From Bradyrhizobium icense (GTDB taxonomy: Bacteria; Pseudomonadota; Alphaproteobacteria; Rhizobiales; Xanthobacteraceae): DNA of 64,000 bases. Shown in pieces: positions 3,496-25,453 of this stretch (position 1 is the stretch's first letter; the number at the start of each line of letters is the position of its first letter). The notes beneath the pieces were generated by a model. The model was not told the DNA's origin. It saw nothing but the letters and a program-made list of their open reading frames with translations, and did no database searches. The position numbers and the translations under genes are program-made. The DNA lies in contig NZ_CP016428.1 in the NCBI RefSeq assembly GCF_001693385.1, positions 6,758,001-6,822,000 on the forward strand. Direction: 5' to 3'.

Positions 3496-3604
3496 GGTGC
3501 TTCCCCTTGAACCGCTCCGGCGCTGGCCGCGCGCCATGCCGGACCCGGACCCGGAGCTGCCCGGAATATAGAGAGAAGTGTGGCGAAGTCACAGCGGCAT
3601 CCTG

Positions 3605-3631
3605 ACAGGAGCCATTGCCCGGGCTCTGTCC
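3605..3631 (-). terminator. possible hairpin terminator after the P450 gene
   Basis: An inverted repeat (GACAGGAGCC against GGCTCTGTC with one bulged base) lies between the end of the P450 gene and the start of the asmA-like gene. There is no T-run, so this is a weak call. Confidence 0.25.
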
Positions 3632-3654
3632 ACCAATCTGGGCCGCCGCAGGCG

Positions 3655-4887
3655 CTACCAGCTTGCCGGCAGGCGCTTCAGCCCACGCAGCACGAAGGTC
3701 GGCCGCCATTCCGCATTGACGGCGTCATCGAGCCGCAGGTCCGGGATCCGCCGAAGCAGGGTCGAGATCGCGATCTCGGCCTCGATCCGCGCCAGTTGGG
3801 CCCCGAGGCAGAAATGGATGCCGCCGCCGAACGATAGCGGCTTCACGTTGGGCCGGGTGATATCCAGCCGCTCCGGGTTATCAGGATAGACCGCCGGGTC
3901 GTGATTGGCCGAGCCGAGCAGGCACAGCACGCTCTCGCCCTTCGGAATGCGCTTTCCGCCGAGATCGTCGATGTCTTCCAGCGCCACCCGGCCGGTCAAC
4001 TGCACCGAGGAATCGTAGCGCAGGAATTCCTCGATGGCGTTGGTGATGAGCTCGGGTCTCGCCTTGAGCAGCGCGAGCTGATCGGGATTGCGGTGCAGTG
4101 ACAGGAGGCCGTTGCCGATCAGGTTGACGGTGGTCTCATGACCGGCGCCGAACAGCAGGATGATATTGGCGGTCAGCTCCTCGTTGGTGAGCTTGCTGCC
4201 GTCCTCCTCGGCCTGCACCAGTTGGGTGATCAGGTCGTTGCCTGGGCTCTTTCGCCTGAGATCGAACAATTGCTGGAAATACATCGCTGCCAGCGCGTTG
4301 CTGGCGTTACCCTGCTTGATCTCCTCCGGCGACAGCGGCACCGGATCGAGCAGGCGTCCGCCGTCGCGGGAGCCGGTATAGAACGCCTCGCGGTGGTCTT
4401 CGGGGATCCCGAGCATATCGCAGATGATAGTGACCGGCAGGCGGAACGCGAAATCCTCGATCAGGTCCATCTTGCCCTGCGGGATGATGCGGTCGAGCGT
4501 GTCGTCGACCACCTGCTGGATGCGCGGGCGCATGTCCTCGACCCGGCGCGCGGTAAAAGCCTTCACCACCAGCCCGCGCAGACGGGTGTGGTCCGGCGGG
4601 TCCTGCTGCAGCATCCAGTGGCTCATGCTGCGGAACACCGGCTCGTCCATGATCTTCGGGCCGTAGCGACGGATGGTGCGCTCGACATAGTCCTTGCCGA
4701 ACCGCTTGTCGCGCATGACGAGGCTGACCTCGGCGTGGCGGCTTGCGACATACATGCCGAGCGGCGTCAGATGCACGGGATCGGTGGTGCGCATCCGCTC
4801 GTAGTGCGGGTAGGGGTTGCGAATGAATTCCGGGGCCAGCGGATTGAACAATGGCGCGCTGCTGGCAGGCTGAACATGCTCGTTCAT
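3655..4887 (-). CDS. cytochrome P450
   Basis: Class I bacterial P450 (about 410 residues). The heme-thiolate loop FGGGIHFCLGAQLAR lies near the C-terminus with the axial Cys. The oxygen-binding I-helix motif is GAGHETTV, and the K-helix ExxR appears as EEFLR. It should be a soluble monooxygenase that needs a ferredoxin and reductase, neither of which is adjacent. I chose the ATG at 4887, which has a GAGGT ribosome-binding site; an in-frame ATG at 4914 would add nine residues and has no such site. It is transcribed divergently from the TetR gene at 4997, and the palindrome between them suggests local repression. The substrate cannot be read from sequence. Confidence 0.93.
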   Translation of the reverse strand: MNEHVQPASSAPLFNPLAPEFIRNPYPHYERMRTTDPVHLTPLGMYVASRHAEVSLVMRDKRFGKDYVERTIRRYGPKIMDEPVFRSMSHWMLQQDPPDHTRLRGLVVKAFTARRVEDMRPRIQQVVDDTLDRIIPQGKMDLIEDFAFRLPVTIICDMLGIPEDHREAFYTGSRDGGRLLDPVPLSPEEIKQGNASNALAAMYFQQLFDLRRKSPGNDLITQLVQAEEDGSKLTNEELTANIILLFGAGHETTVNLIGNGLLSLHRNPDQLALLKARPELITNAIEEFLRYDSSVQLTGRVALEDIDDLGGKRIPKGESVLCLLGSANHDPAVYPDNPERLDITRPNVKPLSFGGGIHFCLGAQLARIEAEIAISTLLRRIPDLRLDDAVNAEWRPTFVLRGLKRLPASW

Positions 4888-4948
4888 GGTGACCTCATGC
4901 TGGCTATGCGCCATTCAGCGCGTTTTCCCCCGGGGCCGATTGAGACAA

Positions 4949-4972
4949 ACTCGATACATTATTGTATTGAGT
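4949..4972. promoter_or_regulatory. putative TetR operator between P450 and regulator genes
   Basis: Two 10-bp arms, ACTCGATACA and TGTATTGAGT, match as an inverted repeat at 9 of 10 positions around a TTAT spacer. The site is centred in the 109-bp divergent gap, 25 bp before the regulator ATG. This is the usual place and size for an autoregulatory TetR-family operator. Confidence 0.6.
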
Positions 4973-4996
4973 TGCATTCTCGCCTAAACTGGGCAG

Positions 4997-5608
4997 ATGT
5001 CAAGAGTGCGAACCAGACCCACAAGGGACGATACCCGCGAAAAGCTGTTCGAGGCGGCGGCGCGCGTGTTCGAGGAACAGGGGATTGGCGGCGCCAGCAT
5101 CGAGGCGATTGCGGCGGCGGCCGGCTTCACGCGGGGGGCATTTTATTCGAACTTCAAGAGCAAGGACGAGCTGATCATCGCCATGCTCGAGGATCACGTC
5201 GAGCAATCCATGAGGCGCATCCGCGATCTGCTCGAGCGGCATAAAAGCCTTGCCGATTTCATCGACGCGCTGAAGACCATGGACCGAAGCCAGCAGGATC
5301 CGCTCGGCCGCTCTCCCCTGCTGCACATGGAAATGATTCTGTTCGTGGCGCGCGCCGAAAAGCGCCGGCCTGAACTCGCCAAGCGGCTGCGCGCACGAAA
5401 AAAGCTGGTCACCGATATCATCGAGACCACGGCCAGGAACAGCGGCAGGACGACCATTCTCAATCCGACATGGGCCGGTGCGCTGGTGCTGGCGCTGGAG
5501 GATGGTTTTCGCCTGCACCGCCTGATCGATCCAGAGACCACGCCGCCCGACAGCTTTTTTCGCGCCATCGGCGACCTGCAGCGGGCGATGGGAATTTCAT
5601 CGGCGTGA
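4997..5608 (+). CDS. TetR/AcrR family transcriptional regulator
   Basis: The protein has 203 residues. The N-terminal helix-turn-helix is typical of the family (about residues 14-60: ARVFEEQGIGGASIEAIAAA, then AGFTRGAFYSNFKSKDELI). The C-terminal ligand domain is divergent, as usual. It is divergent from the P450 gene with a palindromic operator in the shared promoter, so it probably represses the P450 gene and itself and is released by a P450 substrate-like ligand. The ATG at 4997 is the only sensible start; the frame just upstream is not coding-like. Confidence 0.92.
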   Translation: MSRVRTRPTRDDTREKLFEAAARVFEEQGIGGASIEAIAAAAGFTRGAFYSNFKSKDELIIAMLEDHVEQSMRRIRDLLERHKSLADFIDALKTMDRSQQDPLGRSPLLHMEMILFVARAEKRRPELAKRLRARKKLVTDIIETTARNSGRTTILNPTWAGALVLALEDGFRLHRLIDPETTPPDSFFRAIGDLQRAMGISSA

Positions 5609-9441: not shown

Positions 9442-9835
9442 GCAAGAGACCGCCGCAGGCGGCACTCACATAGTCGCCGCTCTTCTTTTTCTTCTTTAGC
9501 CAGGCATGGTAGTCGGCATTCAGCTTCTCAAACTCAGCGGCAAACTCCGGGACTTCCTTCCTGAAATGCTTAATCGCCGGTTCGAGCGCCTTATACATGT
9601 GACATATCGGGGTGGCTTCGTAGATCTTGTCCTTGGTTCTGACACCGCGTATCAGAACCGCGATCGACTCCCATGTGACGATGAGGAGTTGAGCTGCCGC
9701 TCGCCCCTCGCTGGTCGATTCCGGACCGACTAGACCTTCGGCGCCGCCAAGATCGCGGCGCATCACCTCCGCCGCATAGTAGTTGGAGTCGCTTCGCATT
9801 CTTTCGATACCAAGCAGAAGCTCATTCTGATCCAT
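9425..9835 (-). CDS. uncharacterised small protein, possibly DUF4760-like
   Basis: 136 residues, all soluble-looking, with a pattern of charged helices (YKALEPAIKHFRKEVPEFAA, then EFEKLNADYHAWLKKKKKSG). The spacing of an N-terminal 'leaf' helix, a KDKIYEATP turn and the final lysine-rich helix recalls DUF4760-type proteins, but this is a guess. It starts 72 bp after the large cyclase/ATPase gene on the same strand, and its end overlaps the next gene, so the three probably form one transcript. Confidence 0.55.
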   Translation of the reverse strand: MDQNELLLGIERMRSDSNYYAAEVMRRDLGGAEGLVGPESTSEGRAAAQLLIVTWESIAVLIRGVRTKDKIYEATPICHMYKALEPAIKHFRKEVPEFAAEFEKLNADYHAWLKKKKKSGDYVSAACGGLLHARFG

Positions 9836-9907
9836 GGGTGCCCCCGTTGCTTTGTACGAATGCCAAGCGCAAACGAAATCTATCCCGACATCTACAGCTT
9901 CACAAGC

Positions 9908-12900
9908 TCACCCCCAGAAACGCATCTCCATCGCGTCTGCCAGTGAATTGGAGATGCTGCGGTGGTGCTCTGCATTCGACTTCTGATGGCTAAGATCGAA
10001 CACGTTGGCCAGCCCCTTATGGCAGTTCGCTTGTAGCGGCCGCATGCCTAATTCCTCAGCAAGCGTTAGGCCTTGAGTAAGCCAACTCTTCGCATCATCT
10101 AGGTTTCCCCGATACAGATCCACCTCGCCCAGCATCCGCAGCGAATAAGCCTCGTTTGCCCGCTCCTCATGTTTGCGGGCCAGTTCGAGCCCACGCGTGG
10201 CCGCCTTTAGCGCCTCGCCCTCCCGACCGAGTGAAAGGTAAGCCTCGCTGACGTAAGCCAAACGCAGCGAGTGACGGGCGACGAACCCCTTTGACTCCGC
10301 GACCTCGATACTCTGCTCCAGAATTGGAATCCCCTCGTTCGCCCGGCCGGCTAGAGCAAGGGCGTAACCAAAATGCAATGCAACGTAGGCAAAGCCGACG
10401 GGACTATCTGCAAACGCGCCGGCTGCCAGCGCGCGTTCGAACGAGCGTAGGGCGCGTCGCAAATTCCCCTGTCGCAAGGCGACGACACCGAGACCGAGAT
10501 GCGCATAACCGCAACTGAAGGGATGACGGGCATTTTCGGCGATGCGAAGGGCATCTTCGCCGATATTGAAGGCTTCGGAAAATTGTCCGGTATCGGCCAA
10601 GCCCCATGCGATAAAGCTACGCGAGAACGCGGCGGGCAGGACAAACATCCCGAAGCGCTGGCTCGCCAGGCTGCCTTCCAACTGGGCAGCATTCCAACCG
10701 AAATGTTCGCGAGCCTTCTTGTAGTCTCCGCGGGTGTGGTGCGCCAATCCGAGCGGCAAATTGGTCACGACCTGGAGAGGCAAATCCGACTCCGCGGCGG
10801 CAAGAGCCCGCTCTCCAGCCTCGATCGACTCCCTGTATCGACCCAGCATCCAGAATTGTTCGGTCAAATAGGACTGCACCCATCCGTTGCGCTGCCTGTC
10901 TCCGATCCGATCCGCCAGTTGTTCAGCTTCGCGCAGACGAGAAGCGATTCGGTTGCGATCTCCGAGCGGTTGCAGCACATTGCGAATGTCGAATCGGATA
11001 TCGATCGACTTCTGGATGGTCTCCCTGCTTTGCGGCAATCCAGCCAGCGCGTCGAGCGCTTGCTCGAAGAGTATTACAGCTTCAGGATAAGCTTCTCGAT
11101 CCGCAGCCTTCGTTCCCGCTTGGCGCAGATACGTTACTGCCTTCTCCTGAAGCCCGCCACGTAGCGCATGATCTGCCAGGCGCTCAACATGCTCGCCTAT
11201 GCGGCCAGCATAAATCCTTTCTATCGCAAGAACGACGCGCTGATGAATGTCGCGGCGCCTCTCGCTGCGCAGGCCTCCGTAGGCGACATCGTGGGTGAGA
11301 GCGTGCTTGAAGGAAAATTGAAGATCAGGAAACAACTGGGTGGGAAACACAAATTCGGCCGTCTGCAAATTGTTGAGGACTCCCCGGAGTTCGCTGTCGG
11401 GAAGACTACTTATTTCTTTCAGCAGCGAGAACGGAACGTCGTGTCCAATGACCGCCGCTTCCTGCAGCAACCTCTTCTCGGCTTTTGCCAGCGCATCGAT
11501 ACGCGCGGCTAGAACGGCCTGTACGGTAGGTGGTATTTCGTTTCCCGAAATAGCCTTAACCATCCTGTAGTTCTGTCGCGATCCCTCTAGAAGCTTTCGA
11601 TCTACCAGCGTTCGAACGAGTTCTTCTACGAAGAATGGATTCCCGCCAGCACGATCAAGGACAAAGCTTTTTACGCTTTCGAGTGCCGGATCAGATCCCA
11701 GAAGCGAGTGCAGAAGCGTGGTGAGGCTTGTGCTCTGAAGAGGTTCAAGACGCAGGTTGCGGTAATTCGGCCGTCCCTTCCACCCGTCATCGAATTCCGG
11801 ACGGTAGGTTACCAATAGCAACAAGCGCGCATCGCTTGCATTGACGACGATTTCGTTCAAAAGGCCCAAGGTAAGAGAGTCGTTCCAGTGCAGATCCTCG
11901 AAAACTGCCACGACGGGCTGCACGTTGTTTTCACGTAACAGCAATCTGGTAATTGCCTGGTAAGTGTGCTGTCGGTGCTGGAGCGGATCCAGCGCTTGGA
12001 ATGGATGACCTGCATCCAATGCGTCCAACAAATCCAGCAACGGCGGGATAACGTCCTGCAGCGAGGGATCGAGTGCCAGAATCTTTTCTGTCACCTTCTC
12101 GCGGATCGACTTGGCGTTGTCGCGCTGACTGATCTTGAAATAATAGTGCCGGAGCAATTCGATCACCGGCAGATACGATGCCGCATGGCCGTATGAAGCC
12201 GAATTTGTTTCGAGAACCAGGCAGTCTTCGGTCCGGGATGAATGAACAAATTCATGAACCAGGCGAGATTTGCCCATTCCCGGCTCTCCGACGACTGCCA
12301 CGACTTGGCCATGACCGCCACGGGCGTGATCCAGCGCCTGGGTGAGTCGCTGAATTTCCAGTTCGCGACCGACAAAGGGCGTCAACCCGCGCGAGGCGGC
12401 GGCCTGCAATTTTGTCCGCTCGAAGCCGCCTTCGGTGATCTCGAAGACTTCAACCGATTGCGCAAGCCCTTTTATCGTCATTTCGCCGAGCGACTTGGCT
12501 TCGACGTATCCCTCAACGAGCCGAATGGTATCGGCCGCGGCGAGCACAGAGCCCGGCATCGCCATTTGTTCCATGCGGGATGCCAGATGGGCCGTCTGTC
12601 CGACGACCGTGTAGTCCATGTAGAGATCGTTGTTGATTGAGGAGACGACAATCTCTCCGGAGTTGATACCGACGCGGATCGTGATTGGTGCTCCGTGAAC
12701 GCGGCGGATCTCTTCCGCATAGCGGGCAATCGTCTGCTGCATTCTGAGGGCTGCATAACATGCGCGCACCGCATGATCTTCATGCGCGAGCGGGGCTCCG
12801 AACAGCGCCATGATGCCGTCCCCCATGACCCTGTTCACCATACCTTCATAATGATGGACGGCTTCGAGCATGTGATCGAGAACGGGATCGAGGAGCTTCT

Positions 12901-14508: not shown

Positions 14509-16551
14509 CTACTTGGACCGGGCGATCGTCGTTCCGTCCCAATCTTCGCCGGCCGGGTTTTCGAGCTGCTGCCTGCAGCGTTCGATCATCGTCGTCGACG
14601 CTGCATCGTGCTCGCGGATTTCCAGCACCTTCTCGAACGCGCCGATCGCAGCCCGGAAGTCCCGCGCACGCCAGGCGGCCAGGCCGGCCTCGTATGAAGC
14701 CACCCAGGCGGGTGCGCCGACATCGTCGGCCATATCGAGCAATTCATAAATCTGCAATCCACCCGCACGGCCATAGACCGCCAGCCGGTCGAGTTCGCGA
14801 ACCACGACGCGGTCGCCGGCGAGCCTTCGCGTTTCGGGGCCGATGATGATCGTGGAGCCGTAGGTCTTGTTGGTGCTCTCCAGCCGGCTCGCAATATTCA
14901 CGGCATCGCCGATCACCGTGTAGTTCAGCCGCACCTCGGATCCGATGTTGCCGACCAGCATGTCGCCGGAGTTGATGCCAATGCGGATCCTGACCGGCTG
15001 GCCGTGGTCGTCGATGAGACCCGCCTCTTCCACCGCGCGCCGGCACGCCAAGGCCGCCCGGCAGCAATCGACGGCATGATCGGGATTGGGCACCGGCGCA
15101 CCCCAGAACGCCATCACGGCATCGCCGATGAATTTGTCGATGGTGCCGTTCTGGTTTTGAATCTGCAGCGAGACGCAATCGAAATAGCGCGACAGCAGCG
15201 GGATGATGCGGTCGCCAAGCCGCTCCGACATGCCGGTGAAGCCGGCGAGATCGATGAACATCACGCTCATCGGCCGCACCGCGCCGCCAAGCCGCGCGCC
15301 GTTGCCGTCGCTGATCAGCCGCTTCACGAGGTCGGCGGGGATGTATTTGCGGAACGCGGCAAGCCCCTGCGCCATGTCGCCGATGGCACCCGAAAGATTC
15401 CCGATCTCGGTCAGCCGCGACGGATGCCGCCGCACCTTGTCGAGGTCAAAACGCTCGACATGCCTGATCTCGTTGACCACCTTGATCAGGGGAGCGGCGA
15501 TCAGGCGCTGGGCAAGCCATGCCGACAGCACGCCAGCGAGAACGATCAAGACCGCAAGCCCGATCAGCAAATTCCGGATCGTCATCTGCACCGGTCCGAG
15601 AAATTCCGATTCCGGCACCACCGTCACCAGCGACCAGCCCGGAAACGAAATCGGCGTGATCACCGCCTGATAGGCCTTGCCGTCCCGCGTCACCGTCGTA
15701 TTGAACGGCTGCCCCTCGCCGGGTTCGTAGGCGCTGCCGGCGTTTCGGATCGCATCGACCGCGACCGGAAACAGCGGATGATCGGTCTTCAGCGCCACCA
15801 GTTCGCTGGCATCGGGATCGGGCGAGGCCACCACCTTGCCGTCCCGCTCGAGAATGAAAGCGCCCGCCGACTTGCCGACCGTGAGCTGCGACAGGAAATT
15901 CGAGACGCGAGTCAGCTCGATGATGATCGCAACGACGCCGGCCGGTTTGCGATCGATTTCGATCGGGGCCGAAAAGGCCGCCGCCAGCCGCTCCCCGCGC
16001 GGATGCGTCGTCAGCGTCGACCAGTGTTCGTCGTTGGTCTCTTTGGCGACCCGAAACCATTCCTGCTCCGTCACGGAATAGTCGGTGTCTTCGAACCAGC
16101 TCCCCTTGAGCCGAAGATCGTTGCCGACGAGTTCGTAGCGATTGATGCGCAAATTGCGGTCGGGCGTGATCTCGAGCATTTCGATGACGTCGTTGCCGAG
16201 CTTGTGTCCGGCAAAGAACGAGCCGTCCGGCCATCCAAACGCCACCCAGGAAATCGTCGGTTGCGACAGCAACTGCGAGCGGAAAACGATCTCGCGTTTT
16301 CGGGCGTCGTGCGGATCGAACACTTTCTCCGCCAGCAGCGTTCGCACCGCCGTCATCGACGACCGCGCCTCCGTCGTGACCGACTGCAGTTCGTCGCTGA
16401 CCGCCGATACGATCTGGTCGTTGATGGTGCTGGCGAGCGTCTGGCTGACCTGATGGGCGGTGCGCCACCACAAAAGATGCACGCCGACGGCGCTGACGAC
16501 GATCGACGTCAGCACGAGGGCGGAAATGGCGCTGCGGATGCCAAGGCGCAT
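14509..16551 (-). CDS. membrane sensor adenylate/guanylate cyclase (dCache-HAMP-cyclase)
   Basis: 680 residues. A first membrane helix (about 8-30) is followed by a ~290-residue periplasmic dCache-like sensor, a second helix (about 327-350), a HAMP region (about 351-405) and a C-terminal class III cyclase (about 430-600). The catalytic set is complete: metal aspartates in MFIDLAGF and GDAVMAFWG, and the Asn/Arg pair in GDAVNIASR. After the cyclase there is a short TPR-like tail. It should turn an extracytoplasmic signal into cAMP (or cGMP). It is divergent from ccdA with about 198 bp between them. Confidence 0.9.
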   Translation of the reverse strand: MRLGIRSAISALVLTSIVVSAVGVHLLWWRTAHQVSQTLASTINDQIVSAVSDELQSVTTEARSSMTAVRTLLAEKVFDPHDARKREIVFRSQLLSQPTISWVAFGWPDGSFFAGHKLGNDVIEMLEITPDRNLRINRYELVGNDLRLKGSWFEDTDYSVTEQEWFRVAKETNDEHWSTLTTHPRGERLAAAFSAPIEIDRKPAGVVAIIIELTRVSNFLSQLTVGKSAGAFILERDGKVVASPDPDASELVALKTDHPLFPVAVDAIRNAGSAYEPGEGQPFNTTVTRDGKAYQAVITPISFPGWSLVTVVPESEFLGPVQMTIRNLLIGLAVLIVLAGVLSAWLAQRLIAAPLIKVVNEIRHVERFDLDKVRRHPSRLTEIGNLSGAIGDMAQGLAAFRKYIPADLVKRLISDGNGARLGGAVRPMSVMFIDLAGFTGMSERLGDRIIPLLSRYFDCVSLQIQNQNGTIDKFIGDAVMAFWGAPVPNPDHAVDCCRAALACRRAVEEAGLIDDHGQPVRIRIGINSGDMLVGNIGSEVRLNYTVIGDAVNIASRLESTNKTYGSTIIIGPETRRLAGDRVVVRELDRLAVYGRAGGLQIYELLDMADDVGAPAWVASYEAGLAAWRARDFRAAIGAFEKVLEIREHDAASTTMIERCRQQLENPAGEDWDGTTIARSK

Positions 16552-16749
16552 ACAGGGGTCCCGATGACGGTCTGATTACCGCCATACGGGACCATACCAG
16601 CGTCTGTTTCGCCGGCGAGGCAATTTCGGCGCCCCGGACACGGCTCTGTGACCGAAGGTGAGCCGTAATGACGACGAAACTTATCGATTGCCTGTTCCGT
16701 ACAACCGAAGACGGCGCTATGCCTTGCGGCAGTTCTCGAAGGTCATGCA

Positions 16750-17547
16750 ATGCACGATGTTTCCATCCCGGCGGCCCTGATTGCCGGTCTCGTCAGTTTC
16801 CTTTCGCCCTGCGTGCTGCCGCTGGTGCCGCCCTATCTGGTCTATCTCACCGGCGCGACCATCGAGCATGTCGCTAGCAAGGAGACGATGCAAACCTCCA
16901 AGCGCGCAGTGATGGCTGCGGCGCTGATGTTCGTGCTGGGCTTCTCCACTATCTTTGTCACTCTAGGCGCTACCGCGAGCTTTATTGGTCGGGGGTTACG
17001 CGATCTACGTGTCGCGTACCTCCATAAGGTTACAGAGATTCAGACTGCGTTGGGCTTCAATCTTCCATTCCCGGACGATCCGTTCGCGTTCTTAGCCGGC
17101 ATCGTGATCATCATCATGGGCCTGCACTTCCTCGGCCTGACCCGGATCGGACTGTTGATGCGCGAAGGCCGGATGCCGATGCCGAAACCGGTCGGCCTCT
17201 GGGGCGCCTATGCCATGGGGCTGGCCTTCGCCTTCGGCTGGACCCCCTGCATCGGGCCCATTCTGGCGGCGATCCTGTCGATTGCGGCCGCCGAGGCCAC
17301 CGTGACCAAGGGCGCCGGCCTGCTTGCGGTCTATTCCGCCGGGCTGGGAATCCCGTTCCTGCTGGCAGCCTTCATGATCGAGCAGTTCTCCTCGCTGTTT
17401 GCGCGGATGAAGCGGCATCTCGCCAAGGTCGAGCATGCCATGGGAATCCTGATGGTGATCACCGGCATCGGCTTCCTGACCGGCGCTGTTACCAGTGTCA
17501 GCATTTGGCTCTTGGAGACTTTCCCCGCACTGCAAAATTTCGGTTAG
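16750..17547 (+). CDS. ccdA: cytochrome c biogenesis protein CcdA (DsbD-type thiol reductant carrier)
   Basis: 265 residues, multi-spanning. The two redox Cys motifs of the family are present: SFLSPCVLPLVPP near the N-terminus and FGWTPCIGPILAAIL in the fourth segment. CcdA passes electrons from cytoplasmic thioredoxin to periplasmic thiol proteins. An unusual segment lies between the third segment and AGIVIIIMGLHFLG (about residues 78-112, GLRDLRVAYLHKVTEIQTAL onward). It is longer than I expect for this loop, and its codons are visibly AT-richer than the rest of the gene. The next genes are doxX and an exported thioredoxin-like protein, which fits a periplasmic thiol-redox role. Confidence 0.9.
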   Translation: MHDVSIPAALIAGLVSFLSPCVLPLVPPYLVYLTGATIEHVASKETMQTSKRAVMAAALMFVLGFSTIFVTLGATASFIGRGLRDLRVAYLHKVTEIQTALGFNLPFPDDPFAFLAGIVIIIMGLHFLGLTRIGLLMREGRMPMPKPVGLWGAYAMGLAFAFGWTPCIGPILAAILSIAAAEATVTKGAGLLAVYSAGLGIPFLLAAFMIEQFSSLFARMKRHLAKVEHAMGILMVITGIGFLTGAVTSVSIWLLETFPALQNFG

Positions 17548-17681
17548 CCCCGTAACAAGCGGACCGGCATCAACGAAACTCCTCTCAGGACCAGACTGCC
17601 GCCACCGCGGCCGCGACGTTTTCCGCGCGAAGAGGCCGCAGGTCGCGGTTTCACGTCGCCAAAGTACTTGAAGGGGGCCGC

Positions 17682-18146
17682 ATGTATTCCACCGTCAATC
17701 TCCTCATCCTGTTGCCGGCGCAGATCGCCTCGCATTTTTCCTGGGCTGGCCCCCTCATCATGCGGCTCATCGTCGGTTACACCTTCATGCTGGCGGGTTG
17801 GGGCAAGCTCACCCACCTGGAGCAGGTGACCGAAAACTTTGCCGGCTGGGGCATCCCTTTCCCGGCAATCCTCACCCCCTTCGTCTCCGGCGTCGAATTC
17901 TGCGGCGGCGCCATGCTGATCCTCGGCCTGTTCACGCGAATTCCGGCCGCGATGCTGGCGGTGGTCATGGTCGTCGCCATCAAGTCGGCGAAATGGGGCG
18001 ACGTCGATTCGCTGGAGACGCTGCTCGGCTTCGAGGAAGCGACCTACTTCGCCGGCTTCATGTGGCTTGCGATTGCCGGCCCCGGCGCAGTGTCACTCGA
18101 CCGGTTGCTGGTGAATGCCAGCGGTCAGCCCAAAGCTTCAACCTGA
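17682..18146 (+). CDS. DoxX family membrane protein
   Basis: 154 residues, four membrane segments, with the DoxX family hallmark MRLIVGYTFMLAGWGKL and the following GIPFPAILTPFVSGVEFCGG, LILGLFTR. AAGGGGG precedes the ATG. DoxX-like proteins often travel with DUF692/DUF2063 bufferin genes (as in the gold-induced gig operons) and with thiol-redox genes. Here it lies between ccdA and a thioredoxin-like gene and about 2.3 kb before the bufferin precursors. A role in membrane redox or copper stress is an inference from this context. Confidence 0.85.
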   Translation: MYSTVNLLILLPAQIASHFSWAGPLIMRLIVGYTFMLAGWGKLTHLEQVTENFAGWGIPFPAILTPFVSGVEFCGGAMLILGLFTRIPAAMLAVVMVVAIKSAKWGDVDSLETLLGFEEATYFAGFMWLAIAGPGAVSLDRLLVNASGQPKAST

Positions 18147-18236
18147 CCCTCACAATCACGTGACATCGGCTAATGCTTGAGCCGTGATCGCGCCGCCTGC
18201 GTAGCTGGAGAGAACGCCACGCTTCCGGGAGCTACC

Positions 18237-20024
18237 ATGAGACTCGTCCGCATTGCCGCCTTCGCCCTCGCCGCGCTTGCGGCATCGCCCTCGTTTGCTT
18301 CGGACGGGCCCAAATGGAGCGATTGGAGCGACGATCTGTTCGCCCGCGCGCAGGCTGAACAGCGCTTCGTCATCCTCGATCTCGAGGCGGTGTGGTGCCA
18401 CTGGTGCCATGTCATGGAGAAGACGACCTACGCCAATCCCGAGGTCAGGGAATTGCTCGCCGCGAAATATCTGCCAGTGCGGGTCGATCAGGACGCCAAC
18501 CCCGAACTGTCGAGCCGCTATGGCGACTGGGGCTGGCCGGCGACCATCGTGTTCGGCCCCGACGGCAGCGAGATCGCCAAGATCAGGGGATATATCGAGC
18601 CGGAACGGATGCAGGCGCTGCTCAAGGCGATCATCGACGACCCTTCGCCTGGACCGTCGGTCGCCGAAGCCTTTGAGGTGAAGCCATCGACCTTCGCTGT
18701 CCTCGACAAGGAACAGCGCGCCGCGCTGATGAAGAATGTCGACGAATCCTTTGAGGAAAAACTCGGCGGCTGGGGCGAGAACCAGAAATACATCGACGCC
18801 GACAGCATGGACCTCGCGATCACCCGCGCCGAGTCCGGCGACGCCATGGCGGCCAAGCGCGCCCGGCAGACGCTGGATGCCGCCATCGCGCTGATCGATC
18901 CGGTGTGGGGCGGCGTCTACCAATGTTCCGAAGCGGGCTCCTGGACGCATCCGCATTTCGAAAAGATCATGTCGTTTCAGGCACAATATCTCCGGCAGTA
19001 CAGCCAGGCCTACGCGCTGTGGAAGGATCCGAAATACCTTGCTGCCGCACGTGACATCGAACGCTATCTCGCGGAATTTCTCAGGAGCCCTGAGGGCGCG
19101 TTCTATGTCAGCCAGGATGCCGACCTCGACCACGACACCGATGGACACAAATACTACGCACTGTCGGACGGCGAGCGCCGCAAGCTTGGCATGCCGCGCA
19201 TCGACAAGAACCTTTATGCCCGCGAAAACGGCTGGGCGATCTCGGGGCTTTCGGCCTACTACAACGTCACCAATGATCCGAAGGTGCTGGCGATTGCCGA
19301 ACGCGCGGCGAAATGGGTGATCGACAACCGCGCGCTGCCGCACGGCGGCTTCCGCCATGGCTCGAAAGATCGCGGCGGGCCATTCATCGGCGACACGCTG
19401 GCGATGGGCCAGGCCTTCCTCGATCTCTATGCTGCCACGGGAAACCGCGACTGGCTCACCAGAGCCGCCAAGGCCGGCGATTTCGTCGCGACCTTCCACG
19501 ATGAGGCCGGCGGCTTCGTGACCTCGAAGACGGAGGAAGGCAAAACCGGCGTGCTCGCAAAACCTGCCAAACCGATCGACGATCAGGTTCAGGTCGCCCG
19601 CTTCATGAACTTGCTCAACCGTTACTTCGGCAACGAGTCCTATCGCGACGAGGCCGCGCACGCGATGCGCTATATCGCCAGCGCCTCGGCCGGGATGATG
19701 CGTCCGCTGCCCGGTGTTCTGCTCGCCGACGAAGAGCTCGCGGTGGAGCCTACCCACATGACGATCGTCGGACACAAGGACGACGCCCGCGCGAAAGACC
19801 TGCATGCCCTCGCCCGCGAGCTGCCGGCCCGCTACAAGCGCCTGGAGTGGCTTGATTTGCGCGAGGGCAAACTGCCCAACCCCGACGTCGAATATCCCGA
19901 TCTCGGCGAACCCGCGGCGTTTGCCTGCAGCAACCGCATCTGCTCGTTTCCGTCCTTCAACGCCGAGGAGTTGCGGGCCACGGTCGCACAGATGGCGAAG
20001 CTGAAACCTGTGCGGGATAGCTGA
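18237..20024 (+). CDS. exported thioredoxin-like protein of the DUF255/YyaL type
   Basis: 595 residues. A signal peptide (RLVRIAAFALAALAASPSFA) leads into a thioredoxin-like domain with the DUF255 redox motif WCHWCHVME (about residues 49-57). It is followed by about 450 residues of the (alpha/alpha)-barrel-like region usual for this family (for example QFLSGVYQ-type segments such as WGGVYQCSEAGSW). ATG 18237 has GGGAG seven bases upstream and gives the signal peptide; an upstream TTG at 18177 is rejected. Placed after ccdA and doxX, it may receive electrons from CcdA. Its substrate is unknown; a link to the bufferin cysteines is an attractive but untested idea. Confidence 0.85.
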   Translation: MRLVRIAAFALAALAASPSFASDGPKWSDWSDDLFARAQAEQRFVILDLEAVWCHWCHVMEKTTYANPEVRELLAAKYLPVRVDQDANPELSSRYGDWGWPATIVFGPDGSEIAKIRGYIEPERMQALLKAIIDDPSPGPSVAEAFEVKPSTFAVLDKEQRAALMKNVDESFEEKLGGWGENQKYIDADSMDLAITRAESGDAMAAKRARQTLDAAIALIDPVWGGVYQCSEAGSWTHPHFEKIMSFQAQYLRQYSQAYALWKDPKYLAAARDIERYLAEFLRSPEGAFYVSQDADLDHDTDGHKYYALSDGERRKLGMPRIDKNLYARENGWAISGLSAYYNVTNDPKVLAIAERAAKWVIDNRALPHGGFRHGSKDRGGPFIGDTLAMGQAFLDLYAATGNRDWLTRAAKAGDFVATFHDEAGGFVTSKTEEGKTGVLAKPAKPIDDQVQVARFMNLLNRYFGNESYRDEAAHAMRYIASASAGMMRPLPGVLLADEELAVEPTHMTIVGHKDDARAKDLHALARELPARYKRLEWLDLREGKLPNPDVEYPDLGEPAAFACSNRICSFPSFNAEELRATVAQMAKLKPVRDS

Positions 20025-20400
20025 ATCGAATTTCCTTATGCAACGCAAACACCGCCGACACTCGGGCTAATCCGTTGAAGCGCCGCGCTTTCTGCGCGGC
20101 GCGCGCTTACGGAGATCACTGCTGCACGCAACGAAATACTCTCAAGCCGCCGGGGTTAGACATGGACGGGATGTCCAACCGCAAAAAAGAAAATTTTCTT
20201 TGAAACGCTGTAACCGCCCGATGCCCCGTAGCTGGTTTCGGATGAGCACTCAAATCACGGAGACCTGACCTCTTCCGGCACGCCACCGCGATCTGATTGC
20301 CATCCGTCCCTCCCCTGCGTCAGCGGGGTCTGTGATCGAACGATCAATAGGCCTCACGGCGTCACTTTTTTGTCTTCACACAACCATCGAGGAGATCGTC
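20025..20400 (+). promoter_or_regulatory. gene-free leader before the bufferin operon
   Basis: 376 bp without a credible gene. It holds a perfect 9-bp GC hairpin (20080-20088 with 20094-20102, loop TTTCT), which may end the upstream transcript, and an A-rich stretch around 20182-20202. A TGTAACC (20209-20215) resembles the -35 element of ECF sigma factors of the SigF kind, but I cannot place a matching -10 at the usual spacing. GAGGAG sits just before the first precursor ATG. Confidence 0.45.
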
Positions 20401-20664
20401 ATGAAGTTGAATTCCAAATCCGGTGCGACGCTCGCCGCTGCCGCCGCCACGCTGTTCCTCGCCGGCTCGGTGGTATCGACGGTGTCGACGCCTGCGAACG
20501 CCGCCCAGGGCAAGTGCATGGCCGGCAATGCTTGCAAGGGCCAGAGCGCTTGCAAGGGCGCGGCCAACGCCTGCAAGGGCCAGAACGCCTGCAAGGGTCA
20601 AGGCTTCTCGGCGACCTCCGAGAAGGCTTGCGCCGCCATGGGCGCCAAGTTCGTCAAGGGTTGA
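20401..20664 (+). CDS. bufA2: bufferin-type metallophore precursor (BufA2-like), copy 1
   Basis: 87 residues. A signal peptide (about 1-35, ending VSTPANA) precedes a small Cys-rich core with six cysteines. Four of them lie in the repeat NACKGQ / SACKG / NACKGQ / NACKGQ, and single ones sit near each end (KCMAG, KACAAM). In Caulobacter, bufferins of this type are exported copper-sequestering RiPPs whose core cysteines are converted to thiooxazole groups by a DUF692 (MNIO) enzyme. The matching enzyme genes follow here. GAGGAG six bases before the ATG argues for strong translation. The core is nearly identical to the second copy at 20863. Confidence 0.88.
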   Translation: MKLNSKSGATLAAAAATLFLAGSVVSTVSTPANAAQGKCMAGNACKGQSACKGAANACKGQNACKGQGFSATSEKACAAMGAKFVKG

Positions 20665-20688
20665 TCGATCCGATCAGGTGCCCAGACA

Positions 20689-20713
20689 GAGGGCTCGGCG
20701 CTGCCGGGCCCTC
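20689..20713 (+). terminator. hairpin between the two bufferin precursors
   Basis: Ten-base arms (GAGGGCTCGG and CCGGGCCCTC, one G-U pair) with a five-base loop, followed by GTTGTTT. It could be a weak intrinsic terminator or attenuator that sets the ratio of copy 1 to downstream genes. Confidence 0.5.
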
Positions 20714-20754
20714 GTTGTTTCGTCTCGGCGGCTGAAATAAAATCGGCTCCGCGT

Positions 20755-20780
20755 GTAACTAAATCCAGACCCGCCACGTA
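20755..20780 (+). promoter_or_regulatory. possible ECF-type promoter before precursor copy 2
   Basis: GTAACT, 16 bases, then CGTA. This resembles the GTAAC-N16-CGNA shape known for SigF-like ECF factors that control bufferin genes in Caulobacter. It lies 83 bp before the second precursor. It is a single match found by eye. Confidence 0.3.
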
Positions 20781-20862
20781 GCTATCGCTGGGTGCAGTTT
20801 GTCGGCCGGAACTGTCGCGGCTTGCGAGCGATGCACCCTCACACTTCCTTCGGAGGATACAA

Positions 20863-21120
20863 ATGAAGATGACTTCCAAGTCCGGCGCGACCCTCGCCGC
20901 CGCTGCAGCCACCCTGTTCCTGGCCGGCGCCACCGTGTCGACAGTGGCCCATGCCGCCGGCGAAGGTAAGTGCGTCGGCGCCAATGCCTGCAAGGGCCAG
21001 AGCGCTTGCAAGGGTGCCAGCAATGCCTGCAAGGGCCAGAACGCCTGCAAGGGTCAGGGCTTCTCGGCCATGACCAAGGAAAAGTGCGACGCCGCCAAGG
21101 GCAAGTACATGCCGTCTTAA
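20863..21120 (+). CDS. bufA2: bufferin-type metallophore precursor (BufA2-like), copy 2
   Basis: 85 residues with a signal peptide (cut after VAHA), then a core with six cysteines (KCVG, NACKGQ, SACKG, NACKGQ, NACKGQ, EKCDAA). The central DNA is almost the same as in copy 1, so this is a recent tandem duplication. The leader and the extreme C-terminus differ more. GGAGGATACAA precedes the ATG, an optimal ribosome-binding site. Two precursors feeding one modification enzyme would raise copper-binding capacity or give two products. Modification of the cysteines is inferred from the family. Confidence 0.88.
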   Translation: MKMTSKSGATLAAAAATLFLAGATVSTVAHAAGEGKCVGANACKGQSACKGASNACKGQNACKGQGFSAMTKEKCDAAKGKYMPS

Positions 21121-21134
21121 GTCACGGTCCGATC

Positions 21135-21158
21135 GAGGCCCGGTGTAGGCCGGGCCTC
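21135..21158 (+). terminator. hairpin between precursor copy 2 and bufB
   Basis: A perfect 9-bp stem, GAGGCCCGG with CCGGGCCTC, and a six-base loop, with no T-run. It is placed where an attenuator would keep precursor mRNA more abundant than the enzyme genes. Confidence 0.45.
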
Positions 21159-21208
21159 GCATCCATGCTAGGTTGACGGTGCAGTTTGGGACGCCGAGCG
21201 GAGACGAG

Positions 21209-22114
21209 ATGAACGTCGCAAGCAGATTGCCAGATACCTCGGCGGCCGCGCTTGCAGACCGCGCGGCGACATCGGCCAAGCCGCCCTTCCTCGGCTTCGG
21301 CCTCGGCTTGCGCCATCAACACTACGACGAAATCCTGAGCGGCAATCCGCCGATCGACTGGTTCGAGGTGATCAGCGAAAACTACATGCTGCCCGGCGGC
21401 CAGCCGCTGCGCACGCTCGACCGAATTTGCGAACGCTACCCCGTGGTGATGCATGGCGTGTCGATGTCGATCGCCTCCACCGCTCCGCCGAATTTCGAGT
21501 ACCTGCAGGCTCTGAAGGATCTCGCTGGGCGTGTCGAGCCGAAATGGGTGTCGGACCATCTGTGCTGGACCGGCGTGCACGGCAAGAACCTGCATGATCT
21601 GCTGCCGATCCCCTACACCAGGGAAGCGCTCGATCACATCGTCGGCCGGGTCCAACTGGTGCAGGATTTTCTCGGCCGCGCCATCGTGCTCGAGAACGTC
21701 TCGACCTACGTCCAATTCAGCAATTCCGAAATGACGGAGTGGGAATTTCTGTCCGAGCTGTCGCGCCGCTCCGGATGCTGGCTTCTGTTCGACGTCAACA
21801 ACGTCTACGTCAGCGCCTTCAACCACGGCTACGATCCCTTGACCTTCCTCAACGGAATTCCGGCGGATCGCGTGGTGCAGTTTCACATGGCCGGCCACAG
21901 CCATATGGGTACCCATATCATCGACACCCACGACCACCCGGTATGCGAGGACGTCTGGGAGCTCTATGCCGCGGCGTTGAAACGTTTCGGCCGGGTCTCG
22001 ACCATGATCGAGCGCGACGACAACATCCCGCCGCTCGACGAATTGTTGCTTGAGGTTGCCAGGACCCGCGAGATGGCCGAGAAAATCTTGCCGAGGTGCA
22101 CGCAGGCGGAATGA
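21209..22114 (+). CDS. bufB: DUF692 / MNIO-family bufferin modification enzyme BufB
   Basis: 301 residues, a TIM-barrel multinuclear non-heme iron oxidase. The conserved metal-ligand blocks of the family are all visible: HGVSMSIAS, VSDHLCWTG, LENVSTYVQ, FDVNNVYVSAFNHGYD, FHMAGHSHMG, DTHDHPV and IERDDNIP. Relatives oxidise precursor cysteines to oxazolone/thioamide or thiooxazole groups, with help from a DUF2063 partner. ATG 21209 has GGAGACGAG upstream; an upstream TTG at 21173 is rejected. The stop overlaps the start of bufC (ATGA). With two precursors just upstream, its substrate is very likely their NACKGQ cysteines. Confidence 0.93.
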   Translation: MNVASRLPDTSAAALADRAATSAKPPFLGFGLGLRHQHYDEILSGNPPIDWFEVISENYMLPGGQPLRTLDRICERYPVVMHGVSMSIASTAPPNFEYLQALKDLAGRVEPKWVSDHLCWTGVHGKNLHDLLPIPYTREALDHIVGRVQLVQDFLGRAIVLENVSTYVQFSNSEMTEWEFLSELSRRSGCWLLFDVNNVYVSAFNHGYDPLTFLNGIPADRVVQFHMAGHSHMGTHIIDTHDHPVCEDVWELYAAALKRFGRVSTMIERDDNIPPLDELLLEVARTREMAEKILPRCTQAE

Positions 22115-22896
22115 GCGATTTTGCGCGACAGCAAGCCGAGTTTCAGCGCGGCATCCTCGATGGCGACGATACGGTGCTGGCTGAAATCCTCGACAGCCCG
22201 CGCGAGAAGCGCGAGACGCTGTTCGGCGTCTATCGCTATGCCTACGGCTCGCGGCTGGTCGAGGCAATGCGCAACGACCATGAACTCCTGCATCTTTACC
22301 TCGGCGACGAAATGTTCGACGAGATGGGGCACGCTTACGTCAAGGCGCGCCCGTCCGCGCATCCGAACCTGCGCTGGTTCTCGCAAGGCCTGCCGGAGTT
22401 TTTGAAATCGGCGAGGCCCTACTCGGACCATCCCGTACTTTCCGATCTGGCCGCGCTGGAAAAAGCGCTCAACGACGCCTTCGACGCCGCGGAAAGCAAG
22501 GTCGTCGAACTGACCGACATGGCACGCTTTGCGCCGGAGGCATGGTCCGGCCTCAGCTTTCAGCCGCATCCCAGTGCATCCAGGCTCGAGCTGGCGACCA
22601 ACGCGGCCGCGATCTGGCTCGCGCTCAAAAACGACGAAACGCCGTCGGACGCGACCCGACTGGAGCAGCCGGCGCATCTTCTGATCTGGCGTCAGGACGT
22701 CACGCCGATGTTCCGCGAGCTTTCGGCGGAAGAGGCGATGATGTGGGATGAGGCCGCGAACGGTACTCCCTTCGGCGTGCTCTGCGAGATGCTCGCGACC
22801 TATGACGACCCCGACGGCGCGGCAGGCCGCGGCGCCGGCTTTCTGCACGGCTGGATCACGGCGGGACTTTTGACGGATGTTTCCGTCGGCTCATGA
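22111..22896 (+). CDS. bufC: DUF2063 bufferin partner protein BufC
   Basis: 261 residues. The N-terminal DUF2063 domain (about 8-100) has the typical FGVYRYAYGSRLVEAMRNDH and YVKARPSAHPNLRWFSQGLP stretches. The C-terminal half corresponds to the RiPP-recognition-like part of the family. BufC proteins bind the precursor and present it to the DUF692 enzyme. ATG 22111 overlaps the bufB stop by four bases (ATGA), and its own stop overlaps the next ATG the same way, so synthesis of BufB, BufC and the creatininase-like protein is probably coupled. GTG 22096 is an unlikely alternative start. Confidence 0.9.
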   Translation: MSDFARQQAEFQRGILDGDDTVLAEILDSPREKRETLFGVYRYAYGSRLVEAMRNDHELLHLYLGDEMFDEMGHAYVKARPSAHPNLRWFSQGLPEFLKSARPYSDHPVLSDLAALEKALNDAFDAAESKVVELTDMARFAPEAWSGLSFQPHPSASRLELATNAAAIWLALKNDETPSDATRLEQPAHLLIWRQDVTPMFRELSAEEAMMWDEAANGTPFGVLCEMLATYDDPDGAAGRGAGFLHGWITAGLLTDVSVGS

Positions 22897-23702
22897 AGGG
22901 GAGCGCTCGGCGAATGGGAATAGACACCGATCGCCACTTCATCGAGCGCATGCACTGGGACGAAGTCGCGCGGCGCATCGGTGATGGCGCGGCGGCGATA
23001 TTGCCGATCGGCGCCGCCGCCAAGCAGCACGGCTTCCACCTGCCCCTCAACACCGACCGCATCCAGGCCGAATGGCTCGCAGCCAGGATGGCGAAAAAGA
23101 TCGACGCGCTGATCTGGCCGACGCTCACCTACGGTCATTACCCGGCCTTCGTCGATTATGCCGGCAGCAGCAGCCTGTCGATTTCGACCTTCGAGGCGCT
23201 GGTGCGCGAGATCGCCGGGCAGATTCTCGCCGGCGGCTGCCCAAAGCTGCTGGTGCTCAATACCGGGATCAGCACGTTGGCCCCGGTCGATCGCGCACTG
23301 GCGCGCCTCGACAACGCGCGGATCAGGCATTTATGGATCCATGAAGGCCCGCGCTATCCGCGCGTGGCCAGGCAATTGGCCGAGCAGAGCCATGGCAGCC
23401 ATGCGGATGAGCTGGAAACGTCGTTGATGCTGGCGCTGGCGCCGCATCTGGTCGACATGACCCGCGCCGAAGCCAGCCCCGTGATGAACCATGAGACACC
23501 GGGTGCATTGACGCCCTCGGATCCGAATTCGCCGAATTACAGCCGCTCCGGCAGCTATGGCGATCCGACACGGGCGACGTCGGCCAAGGGCGAAGCCTTG
23601 CTCGCCGCCATGCTCGACGATCTCCACGAGCAGGCCGCCTCGTTCATCGCGCAGGACCCCGCCGAGGACCGGTCGGCCGCGGTGCAAGCCGTGCTGAGAT
23701 GA
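22893..23702 (+). CDS. creatininase-family amidohydrolase-like protein
   Basis: 269 residues with the creatininase fold signature LPIGAAAKQHGFHLPLNTD (about 38-56) and the later HADELETS block. Classical members use the Glu of EQHG as a metal ligand; here the motif is KQHG. The NGHGGN block reads NTGIST, so the metal site is altered (KEHG-type relatives exist, but I cannot judge their activity). Another creatininase homologue, MftE, is the peptidase of the mycofactocin RiPP pathway. The gene is coupled to bufC and to the next gene by ATGA overlaps, so a role in bufferin maturation is a reasonable hypothesis. ATG 22914 is an alternative start. Confidence 0.8.
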   Translation: MKGSARRMGIDTDRHFIERMHWDEVARRIGDGAAAILPIGAAAKQHGFHLPLNTDRIQAEWLAARMAKKIDALIWPTLTYGHYPAFVDYAGSSSLSISTFEALVREIAGQILAGGCPKLLVLNTGISTLAPVDRALARLDNARIRHLWIHEGPRYPRVARQLAEQSHGSHADELETSLMLALAPHLVDMTRAEASPVMNHETPGALTPSDPNSPNYSRSGSYGDPTRATSAKGEALLAAMLDDLHEQAASFIAQDPAEDRSAAVQAVLR

Positions 23703-24688
23703 AGGTCGCCAGCGCCTTCCGCTGGACCGTTGCAGCCGCTGTCATCGCCGCGATGCTGCCAAGCGCCATTTCGTTCCGCGCCGACGCGCAATCGGAGTAT
23801 ATGCGCGGCGCCCGTATGCCGTACGATGCGTTCGACCGGCTGCCCAAGACTGACCTCGAAGTGCCCGGCGGCACCATCCATGTCGCGTTCGCGCCGGGCG
23901 ACTTCATGCTATCAAGGGAAAAGCTGCTCGACTGGATCAGGATGTCGGCTCGGGCCGTGACGACCTATTACGGGCGATTTCCCGTCAACTCGCTCCGGCT
24001 GCTCCTGGTGCCGGTCGATGGCGGGCGCATTCGCGGCGGCACGACGTGGGGCTATCGCGGCGCCGCCATTCGCATTCCGCTCGGCCGCGATTCAAGCGAG
24101 GATGTGCTGCGCCGCGACTGGGTGATGGTGCACGAGATGGTGCATACCGCCCTGCCCGACATGCCCGACCGCTACGCGTGGCTCTCGGAGGGGTTGGCCG
24201 TTTATATCGAGCCGGTCGCGCGGGTGCAGGCCGGCGACCTCACGGCGCGGGAAATCTGGCAGGCGATGATGCGCGACATGCCGAAGGGGCTGCCGCAAGC
24301 CGGCGATCAGGGCCTCGACAACACCGGCACTTGGGGGCGGAAATATTGGGGCGGCGCGATGTTCTGCCTGCTCGCCGATATCGAAATCCGCAAAGCTACC
24401 GATAATCGCCTCGGCCTGCAGGACGCGATGCGCGGCGTGCTCGCCGCCGGCGGCAATCACGAGCAGGACTGGCCGATCGAGCGCATCCTTGCAACCGCCG
24501 ACAAAGCCGTCGGCGTCGATGTGCTGACCCGGCTTCACAACGAGATGGGGCCGAAGCCGGTGACGCCCGATCTCGCGTCGCTGTGGCGCGACCTCGGCTT
24601 GAAGCGGACTGGCGAAGATATCGAGTTCGACGACACCGCGCCGCTGGCTGCAATCCGCAAGGCGATCACCGCGCCGCACGCACGATAA
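23699..24688 (+). CDS. exported gluzincin-like (HExxH) putative metallopeptidase
   Basis: 329 residues. A signal peptide (AAAVIAAMLPSAISFRADA) is followed by a zinc-peptidase site WVMVHEMVHTALPDMPD (HExxH, about residues 144-148). A downstream acidic ligand candidate sits in WLSEGLAVYIEP (about 161-172). This spacing matches clan MA(E) gluzincins of the M1/M61 style; I cannot name a finer family. It is the last gene of the bufferin run, joined by an ATGA overlap to the creatininase-like gene. It ends 66 bp before a convergent outer-membrane gene. A periplasmic peptidase encoded with exported RiPPs could trim or degrade them; this is inference. Confidence 0.78.
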   Translation: MKVASAFRWTVAAAVIAAMLPSAISFRADAQSEYMRGARMPYDAFDRLPKTDLEVPGGTIHVAFAPGDFMLSREKLLDWIRMSARAVTTYYGRFPVNSLRLLLVPVDGGRIRGGTTWGYRGAAIRIPLGRDSSEDVLRRDWVMVHEMVHTALPDMPDRYAWLSEGLAVYIEPVARVQAGDLTAREIWQAMMRDMPKGLPQAGDQGLDNTGTWGRKYWGGAMFCLLADIEIRKATDNRLGLQDAMRGVLAAGGNHEQDWPIERILATADKAVGVDVLTRLHNEMGPKPVTPDLASLWRDLGLKRTGEDIEFDDTAPLAAIRKAITAPHAR

Positions 24689-24754
24689 GACCGATGGGGA
24701 AGCGCGACATGATGATCCGGCAGCCAGCGCCGCCGGACCACCACAAGCGAAGTA

Positions 24755-25453
24755 TCAGAACCGATAACTGGCGCCCACGCGCACGAAGTGCATCTCGTTG
24801 CGGAATTCAGCCCGCGTGCGGTCCCGGCTGGACAGCGTGACGCTGCCATAGTCGGCGTAGAGATACTCAGCGCGCCCGACGAAATGCTTGGTGAAAGCAT
24901 ACTCGATGCCGGCGCCCGCGATCAGCCCGGCCTTGACCTGTTCGTCCCAGATAGCCTGCTCCAAGGTGTCGCAACCCCTTTGCACCGTATAGCGGTAGCC
25001 ATTATCGATACTGGCCACGCCGACACCGACCGCACCAAATGCGAGCAGGCGGTCGAACGCGTAGCCGGCGCGCAGGCGAGCCGAGCCGAACGCGCCGAAC
25101 CGCGACAGCAGCGCGCTGTCGGCAAAGACGAGTTCGTCCCGCGACGAAGTGGACTTGCCCCAATCGAATTCGGCGCCAATTACCAAGCGGTTGGCGAACT
25201 GATAGTTGTAGCCGCCATAGACGCCGACGGCGAAGCCGCCCGCCTGCCCCTCCGCATGACGACAAGCACCATTTCGGCAGTAATCGGCCGCCCACGCCGC
25301 ATACGCACCGCCGCCGTAAACGCCTGCATAGAATCCGGTCCAGTTGTAGTGAGGCGAAGGCAGGTCCGGAATACGGATTTCGGCAGCCTTCGCCGCCGGA
25401 CCTGCCAGCAAAAAGCCGCAAGCGGCAACAATCCCCCAGGAAAGAAAACGCAT
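24755..25453 (-). CDS. outer-membrane beta-barrel protein (Omp25/RopB-like)
   Basis: 232 residues. A signal peptide (FLSWGIVAACGFLLAGPAAKA) and an eight-strand barrel pattern typical of rhizobial porin-like proteins are visible: YNWTGFYAGVYGGGAYAAW near the start, repeated aromatic/Gly strands, and a C-terminal strand ending in HFVRVGASYRF with terminal Phe. It carries three to four Cys in extracellular-loop positions (CRNGAC, RGCDTL), which is unusual for this family. GAGGT precedes the ATG. It is convergent with the bufferin-run peptidase. Confidence 0.87.
   Translation of the reverse strand: MRFLSWGIVAACGFLLAGPAAKAAEIRIPDLPSPHYNWTGFYAGVYGGGAYAAWAADYCRNGACRHAEGQAGGFAVGVYGGYNYQFANRLVIGAEFDWGKSTSSRDELVFADSALLSRFGAFGSARLRAGYAFDRLLAFGAVGVGVASIDNGYRYTVQRGCDTLEQAIWDEQVKAGLIAGAGIEYAFTKHFVGRAEYLYADYGSVTLSSRDRTRAEFRNEMHFVRVGASYRF

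Follow-up and report, generated by a model that had tools for sequence, protein, structure and literature searches.

A Buf2-type bufferin locus in Bradyrhizobium icense with a conserved set of added genes

In a 64-kb window of the Bradyrhizobium icense genome (the whole stretch of DNA analysed, to which all coordinates of its genes refer), we found a Buf2-type bufferin locus whose precursor and maturation genes are joined by genes for a creatininase-fold protein, an exported protein with an HExxH motif, a CcdA-like and a DoxX-family membrane protein, and a DUF255 protein. The Buf1 bufferin of Caulobacter carries thiooxazoles derived from cysteines, chelates copper and is exported through Sec, and Buf2 is thought to be similar (parts of PMC12452194). 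We read the locus as an extended Buf2-type bufferin cluster with a conserved added gene set; taken as a whole, mechanism included, this explanation seems to us evenly poised between right and wrong. The genes are as follows.

16750..17547, + strand: CcdA/DsbD_TM-like membrane protein (PF02683, 48.9 bits, cut-off 27.1)
17682..18146, + strand: DoxX-family membrane protein (PF07681, 76 bits, cut-off 23.6)
18237..20024, + strand: DUF255 protein with a thioredoxin-fold start, WCHWC (PF03190, 75.4 bits, cut-off 27)
20401..20664, + strand: BufA2 precursor 1, 87 amino acids, 6 Cys (NF050166 Cu_RiPP_BufA2, 76.9 bits, cut-off 60)
20863..21120, + strand: BufA2 precursor 2, 85 amino acids, 6 Cys (NF050166, 85.2 bits, cut-off 60)
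21209..22114, + strand: BufB, MNIO (DUF692) maturase of the Buf2 type (NF050167, 383.8 bits, cut-off 310; PF05114)
22111..22896, + strand: BufC, DUF2063 partner (PF09836, 62.7 bits, cut-off 27.2)
22893..23702, + strand: creatininase-fold protein with altered metal-site residues (PF02633, 160.9 bits, cut-off 31.3; fold)
23699..24688, + strand: exported M61/M1-like gluzincin, HEMVH plus E164 (invariant residues; fold)

The initial annotation covered 20401-24688 only and proposed six genes there: two BufA precursors, BufB, BufC, a creatininase-like protein and an HExxH protein. All six are present and co-directional, with family scores over the cut-offs except for the HExxH protein, which has zero Pfam or NCBIfam matches and was recognised by its motif. 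The left edge had been set too tightly, because CcdA, DoxX and DUF255 (16750-20024), which were missed, belong to the same conserved block. The last four genes had also been described as chained by ATGA overlaps. These are clear between BufB and BufC (22111-22114) and between the creatininase and HExxH genes (23699-23702), but the overlap between BufC and the creatininase gene (22893-22896) depends on the start chosen: database entry P0121 (262 amino acids) has its start seven codons downstream, at 22914, so that the two genes would be 17 bases apart. Judged by eye, as were signal peptides throughout, the BufA N-termini resemble Sec signal peptides, the starts of the DUF255 and HExxH proteins are signal-peptide-like, and none was seen in the creatininase-like protein. 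The CcdA-like protein is likely a thiol-reductant carrier. The WCHWC motif is kept in 46 of the 48 DUF255 matches of at least 300 bits, and the DoxX protein scored 67.7 bits against the HvfX family NF050144, under its cut-off of 80.

Compared with published Buf2-type clusters, the locus shares the BufA2 precursors, the MNIO BufB, the DUF2063 BufC and DoxX, and adds CcdA, DUF255, the creatininase-fold protein and the exported gluzincin. According to parts of PMC12452194, Buf2-type clusters may hold tandem precursor genes, the core is minimal, further conserved genes occur at buf loci in extremely low proportions, and more than 40,000 complete genomes include 864 with Buf2 precursors and 4072 with Buf1 precursors (its Table 3). 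The terms creatinin-, peptidase, thioredoxin, DUF255, DsbD and CcdA are all absent from its main text. Among the papers listed from the open-licence literature, none pairs a creatininase with DUF692, MNIO or DUF2063, and none pairs DUF255 with DUF692, DoxX or copper; within that scope, the view that the extra proteins beside buf genes are undescribed has held up.

We analysed the co-occurrence of the extra genes with bufferin genes in the host family, the class and the order. Among 129 genomes of the host family, 48 hold BufB at E<=1e-40. Six of them (G000, G171, G194, G289, G214 and G255) carry a Buf2-type BufB at least 79% identical to that of the window, and the remaining 42 proteins are 38-47% identical to it. 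All six have the creatininase (>=62% identity) and HExxH (>=60%) genes downstream of BufB. No HExxH protein was found at E<=1e-20 in the other 123 genomes, and three of these non-Buf2 genomes have a distant creatininase (34-36% identity). An extra, unlinked HExxH copy (51%) is present in G214. Within the genus the block is patchy, occurring in three of the six sampled genomes.

In the class sample (318 genomes; HExxH E<=1e-20, creatininase E<=1e-30, BufB E<=1e-40, Buf2-type BufB E<=1e-90), the HExxH protein was found in 15 genomes, all with BufB (116 of 318 overall). Fourteen of the 15 hold a Buf2-type BufB, which is present in 24 of 318 overall (p = 3e-17; like all co-occurrence p-values given here, this overstates independence because genome kinship was ignored). 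Counted by genus, HExxH occurs in 11 of 242 and BufB in 82 of 242 (p = 4e-6). The creatininase is present in 17 class genomes, 14 of them with BufB and 11 with Buf2-type BufB; these 11, from nine families, all encode the HExxH protein as well. At most 3 kb separates the two extra genes in eight of the 11, and G390, G406 and G412 have them on different contigs. Other gene orders and orientations also show the linkage. In G331, an oppositely oriented bufABC set stands next to genes for HExxH, DUF255 and creatininase; in G387, bufABC and one other gene are followed by creatininase, DUF255 and HExxH; and in G513, one Buf1-like and one Buf2 set adjoin HExxH and creatininase. The HExxH-creatininase pair also stands away from BufB, in G386, G399, G441 and G518.

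In the order sample (199 genomes), the HExxH protein was found in 15 genomes. All 15 contain BufB, compared with 112 of 199 overall (E<=1e-3; hypergeometric p = 1.2e-4), and 13 contain a Buf2-type BufB, compared with at least 23 of 199 (p = 1.3e-12). The latter count is a lower bound because some loci with longer NF050167 matches remain untyped; the 17 that were typed include none that is Buf2-like (<=44% identity). Typing relied on sequence comparison for 22 of the 23 and on NF050167 match length alone for G075, a sign that mostly worked but misjudged L214 and L216. In both of these loci BufC adjoins a BufB of a third type, whose identity is 36-38% to the Buf1-like as well as the Buf2-like references. 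Creatininases of at least 50% identity occur in four order genomes (G000, G171, G194 and G053), each adjoining BufB. Distant ones occur in 138 of 199 (E<=1e-3), so membership of the creatininase family alone is uninformative. Either extra gene can be found without the other: G174 has BufA-B-C-HExxH with DUF255 upstream and thioredoxin and CcdA downstream but no creatininase, and G053 has BufA-B-C-creatininase but no HExxH. At the usual HExxH place, G053 has a gene for an SLT_2 transglycosylase (285 bits; positions 9650-10474 of locus L053).

A creatininase scan of named genomes returned 140 confirmed places. BufB or BufC was nearby in 46 of the best 80 of these 140, which were the ones examined. 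The window's creatininase clade comprises 51 loci, those of the sampled genomes included and duplicates left out, and BufB or BufC was seen in 47; L112, L121 and L124 show neither, and L104 is a short contig that begins at the creatininase. At the 34 clade loci with full flanks, all of which were picked up by their creatininase, BufA, BufB and BufC are each present in 34, HExxH in 33, DoxX in 32, and DUF255 and CcdA in 31 each. Bradyrhizobium retamae and B. lablabi (L088 and L094) are two culturable examples with the complete block. Creatininase relatives outside this clade are mostly unlinked to buf. In an uncontrolled set chosen by creatininase motif, the 33 genomes of unlinked loci (L104 excluded), a protein of the BufB family is present at E<=1e-76 in every genome and scores over the curated cut-off in 21. 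In 20 of those genomes, the best BufB locus was examined and proved Buf2-like in seven (>=57% identity); near BufB in the 20, a genome of the Bryobacterales and another of the Myxococcota show HExxH, and a single gammaproteobacterium shows DUF255.

The creatininase-like protein belongs to the Creatininase superfamily PF02633 by family score and fold. It scored 94.4 bits against the creatininase enzyme model TIGR04448, under the cut-off of 235, and 83.5 bits against the MftE model TIGR03964, under the cut-off of 172. In the alignment, Lys44 and Gly125 are present in 94 of 94 relatives where five of five generic creatininase rows have Glu and His, and Ser127 and Thr128 are equally fixed, counts that are partly a product of selection, since the patterns used to pick out the named loci include K[QE]H or GSHADE; the remaining rows were found by protein similarity alone. 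We take the positions changed from Glu to Lys44 and from His to Gly125 to be metal-ligand positions (motifs 1 and 2) of the two-metal creatininase site. PDB titles name E122. His46, Asp55, His170 and Glu175 are retained. Judged from the alignment, the window protein lacks the Glu and His ligands of a two-metal creatininase site. It is 24-26% identical to structures 1j2t and 3a6x, presumably creatininase of Pseudomonas putida, and has Lys and Gly in place of their Glu and His ligands.

In the HExxH protein, H145, E146, H149 and E164 are invariant across 25 sequences, with 14 residues between H149 and E164, and the motif is kept in 76 of the 77 best matches (duplicate loci included). The exception is L114, an Afipia metagenome-assembled genome, which has a creatininase gene divided in two and no HExxH motif (positions 3505-5243). 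The predicted structure (predicted local distance difference test score 89.6) matches the fold of M61 and M1 peptidases, so that the protein combines HExxH and a downstream Glu with the catalytic-domain fold of a gluzincin of the M1/M61 type. This likeness comes from the fold search; by sequence, there were zero matches to solved structures at E<=1. The top Foldseek match, 7xyo, is an M61 member of Myxococcus fulvus and would be MfuP, the M61 peptidase of a lanthipeptide cluster that cleaves within the modified core (review PMC10885120, in part). Compared with M61 peptidases, the window protein shows 12-15% identity and is shorter (about 329 amino acids against 524-605); its distant relatives are longer, at about 410-490. 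Because the cut-off of the M61 family PF05299 was not passed (no match for the window protein; 18.5 bits against 22 for the longer relative in L154), we call it M61-like and do not assign it to M61. On its modelled fold and conserved residues it is likely an active periplasmic peptidase, for which bufferin is the candidate substrate.

We infer the following chemistry for the block. BufBC would modify precursor cysteines in the cytoplasm, and the peptides would leave via Sec, as published for bufferins. In the cytoplasm, too, the creatininase-like protein would act upon the modified precursor or together with it, by other means than the two-metal creatininase mechanism; Lys44 may replace one metal, so that the site would hold a single metal or be non-catalytic. 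CcdA and DUF255 would keep the remaining bufferin cysteines reduced in the periplasm, where the M61-like peptidase would trim mature bufferin or degrade spent, copper-loaded bufferin. The cleavage of a modified core of a ribosomally synthesized and post-translationally modified peptide (RiPP) by MfuP offers a precedent for such a peptidase role. PMC12538549, in part, reports that no protease lies near its cluster and raises processing as a question. The post-export fate of bufferins has been little explored, and the block supplies candidates that may trim them, maintain their thiols and turn them over; its presence in Bradyrhizobium and some relatives suggests unstudied helper steps for copper-binding peptides. 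The data also suggest that creatininases with a rebuilt active site form a subfamily that accompanies MNIO genes in distant bacteria. A wider proposal, which we offer tentatively and think somewhat unlikely in full, is that this Lys/Gly-x-Ser-Thr subfamily accompanies MNIO peptides across several phyla and performs an undescribed step on thiooxazole peptides, that the M61-like peptidase releases or recycles copper-loaded bufferin, and that together they constitute an undescribed post-export life cycle.

Several observations weigh against an extended bufferin cluster. In the order sample, HExxH adjoins BufB in only four of 15 genomes (G000, G171, G194 and G174), two HExxH genomes (G001 and G192) have no Buf2-type BufB, and the search for HExxH gave no match in 10 of the 23 Buf2 genomes; in G001, some 8.6 kb separate HExxH from a Buf1-like BufB. 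A dihydroorotase-like gene adjoins an unlinked HExxH in six genomes, all of one family (L043 and L045-L049). In the class sample, G385 has HExxH without Buf2-type BufB (its BufB is at 47%), and BufB at E<=1e-40 is absent from three of the 17 creatininase genomes, namely G376, G476 and G549. HExxH (5), creatininase (5, one contig-cut) or DUF255 (7) was present in the fetched region at nine of 24 class-sample Buf2 loci, and the other 15, some on short contigs, show none of the three nearby. Of the best 80 of the 140 creatininase loci, 34 show no BufB or BufC nearby; these 34 share no common neighbourhood, no neighbour family besides creatininase recurring in more than four. The expectation that the extra genes would accompany buf loci was borne out far beyond chance beside the Buf2-type genes of the host family (6 of 6 loci). 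Because 15 of the 24 Buf2 loci show none nearby, the extra genes are accessory and no general part of the bufferin pathway, and the HExxH-BufB adjacency of four in 15 and the three creatininase genomes without BufB mean that they are not bound to buf loci. Overall, the initial interpretation is partly supported.

Some of the unlinked copies have distinctive surroundings. The dihydroorotase-like neighbour was confirmed by a family model in L046 only. In G001, which has no typed Buf2 BufB, HExxH lies beside a mercury-resistance set (positions 4801-8912 of L042) in which MerA, MerF and MerP scored over their cut-offs and the MerT and MerR matches fell below theirs. In G376 and G549, the creatininase relatives (L186 and L188) sit in transporter/flavoprotein-like operons, as judged by eye, and it is possible that the creatininase subfamily has another role besides bufferins.

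One alternative is that the HExxH protein serves general quality control as a periplasmic peptidase and that the redox genes serve the envelope at large, sharing stress conditions with bufferins without acting on them. HExxH lies away from buf in 11 of the 15 order genomes, with neighbours such as dihydroorotase-like genes, pntAB-like genes and the mercury-resistance set. However, 13 of these 15 genomes still hold a Buf2-type BufB, compared with at least 23 of 199, and we consider this alternative unlikely. Rather than catalysing a reaction, the creatininase-like protein might regulate BufBC as a scaffold or a metal sensor. The two changed ligand positions and a gene that overlaps or abuts BufC are consistent with this idea, whereas the fixation of Lys44, Gly125, Ser127 and Thr128 in 94 of 94 rows, inflated as it is by motif selection, suggests a worked site; we find a purely regulatory role improbable.

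The initial annotation had likened the protein to MftE, the peptidase of the mycofactocin RiPP, and under that analogy it would be an active MftE-like peptidase cutting BufA in the cytoplasm. The two proteins share the common Pfam family and fold and a RiPP gene cluster, His46, Asp55, His170 and Glu175 are kept, and MftE, a creatininase homologue, does cut a RiPP precursor (PMC10885120, in part). However, membership of MftE was rejected: the score lies under the cut-off, every row has Lys for the presumed ligand Glu and Gly for the presumed ligand His, and the analogy has little left to commend it. Least of all do we favour a mobile island whose genes co-travel without a common function, for although a single Hyphomicrobiales clade accounts for most linked loci and the block is patchy within the genus, the genes are linked again in different orders and orientations, either extra gene is linked without the other (G174 and G053), and co-occurrence extends to unlinked copies.

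In the creatininase tree, the window protein groups among Bradyrhizobium. Trees were built without the duplicates L117, L080, L073, L074 and L148 and without matches covering <75% or <70% of the profile. The short contig L104 (3.1 kb), binned as Novosphingobium, has the order creatininase, HExxH, CcdA, DoxX; it may be mis-binned, because its proteins group with Bradyrhizobium L087. Three apparent creatininase-HExxH fusions (P0002, P0004 and P0105) were dropped, since they look like read-on past the C-terminus, a chimera from a deletion and an N-terminus extended off frame.

Finally, a hairpin follows each precursor gene.

20689..20713, + strand: terminator-like hairpin 3' of precursor 1 (11-pair stem; fold z -2.85)
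21134..21159, + strand: hairpin 3' of precursor 2, not listed as terminator-like (11-pair stem; fold z -3.37, no shuffle folding as well)

A sigma-70 promoter scan of 16500-25000 found none, and the region holds four terminator-like sites against a shuffle mean of 6.7, i.e., no excess. The hairpins behind each bufA could hold precursor above enzyme levels.

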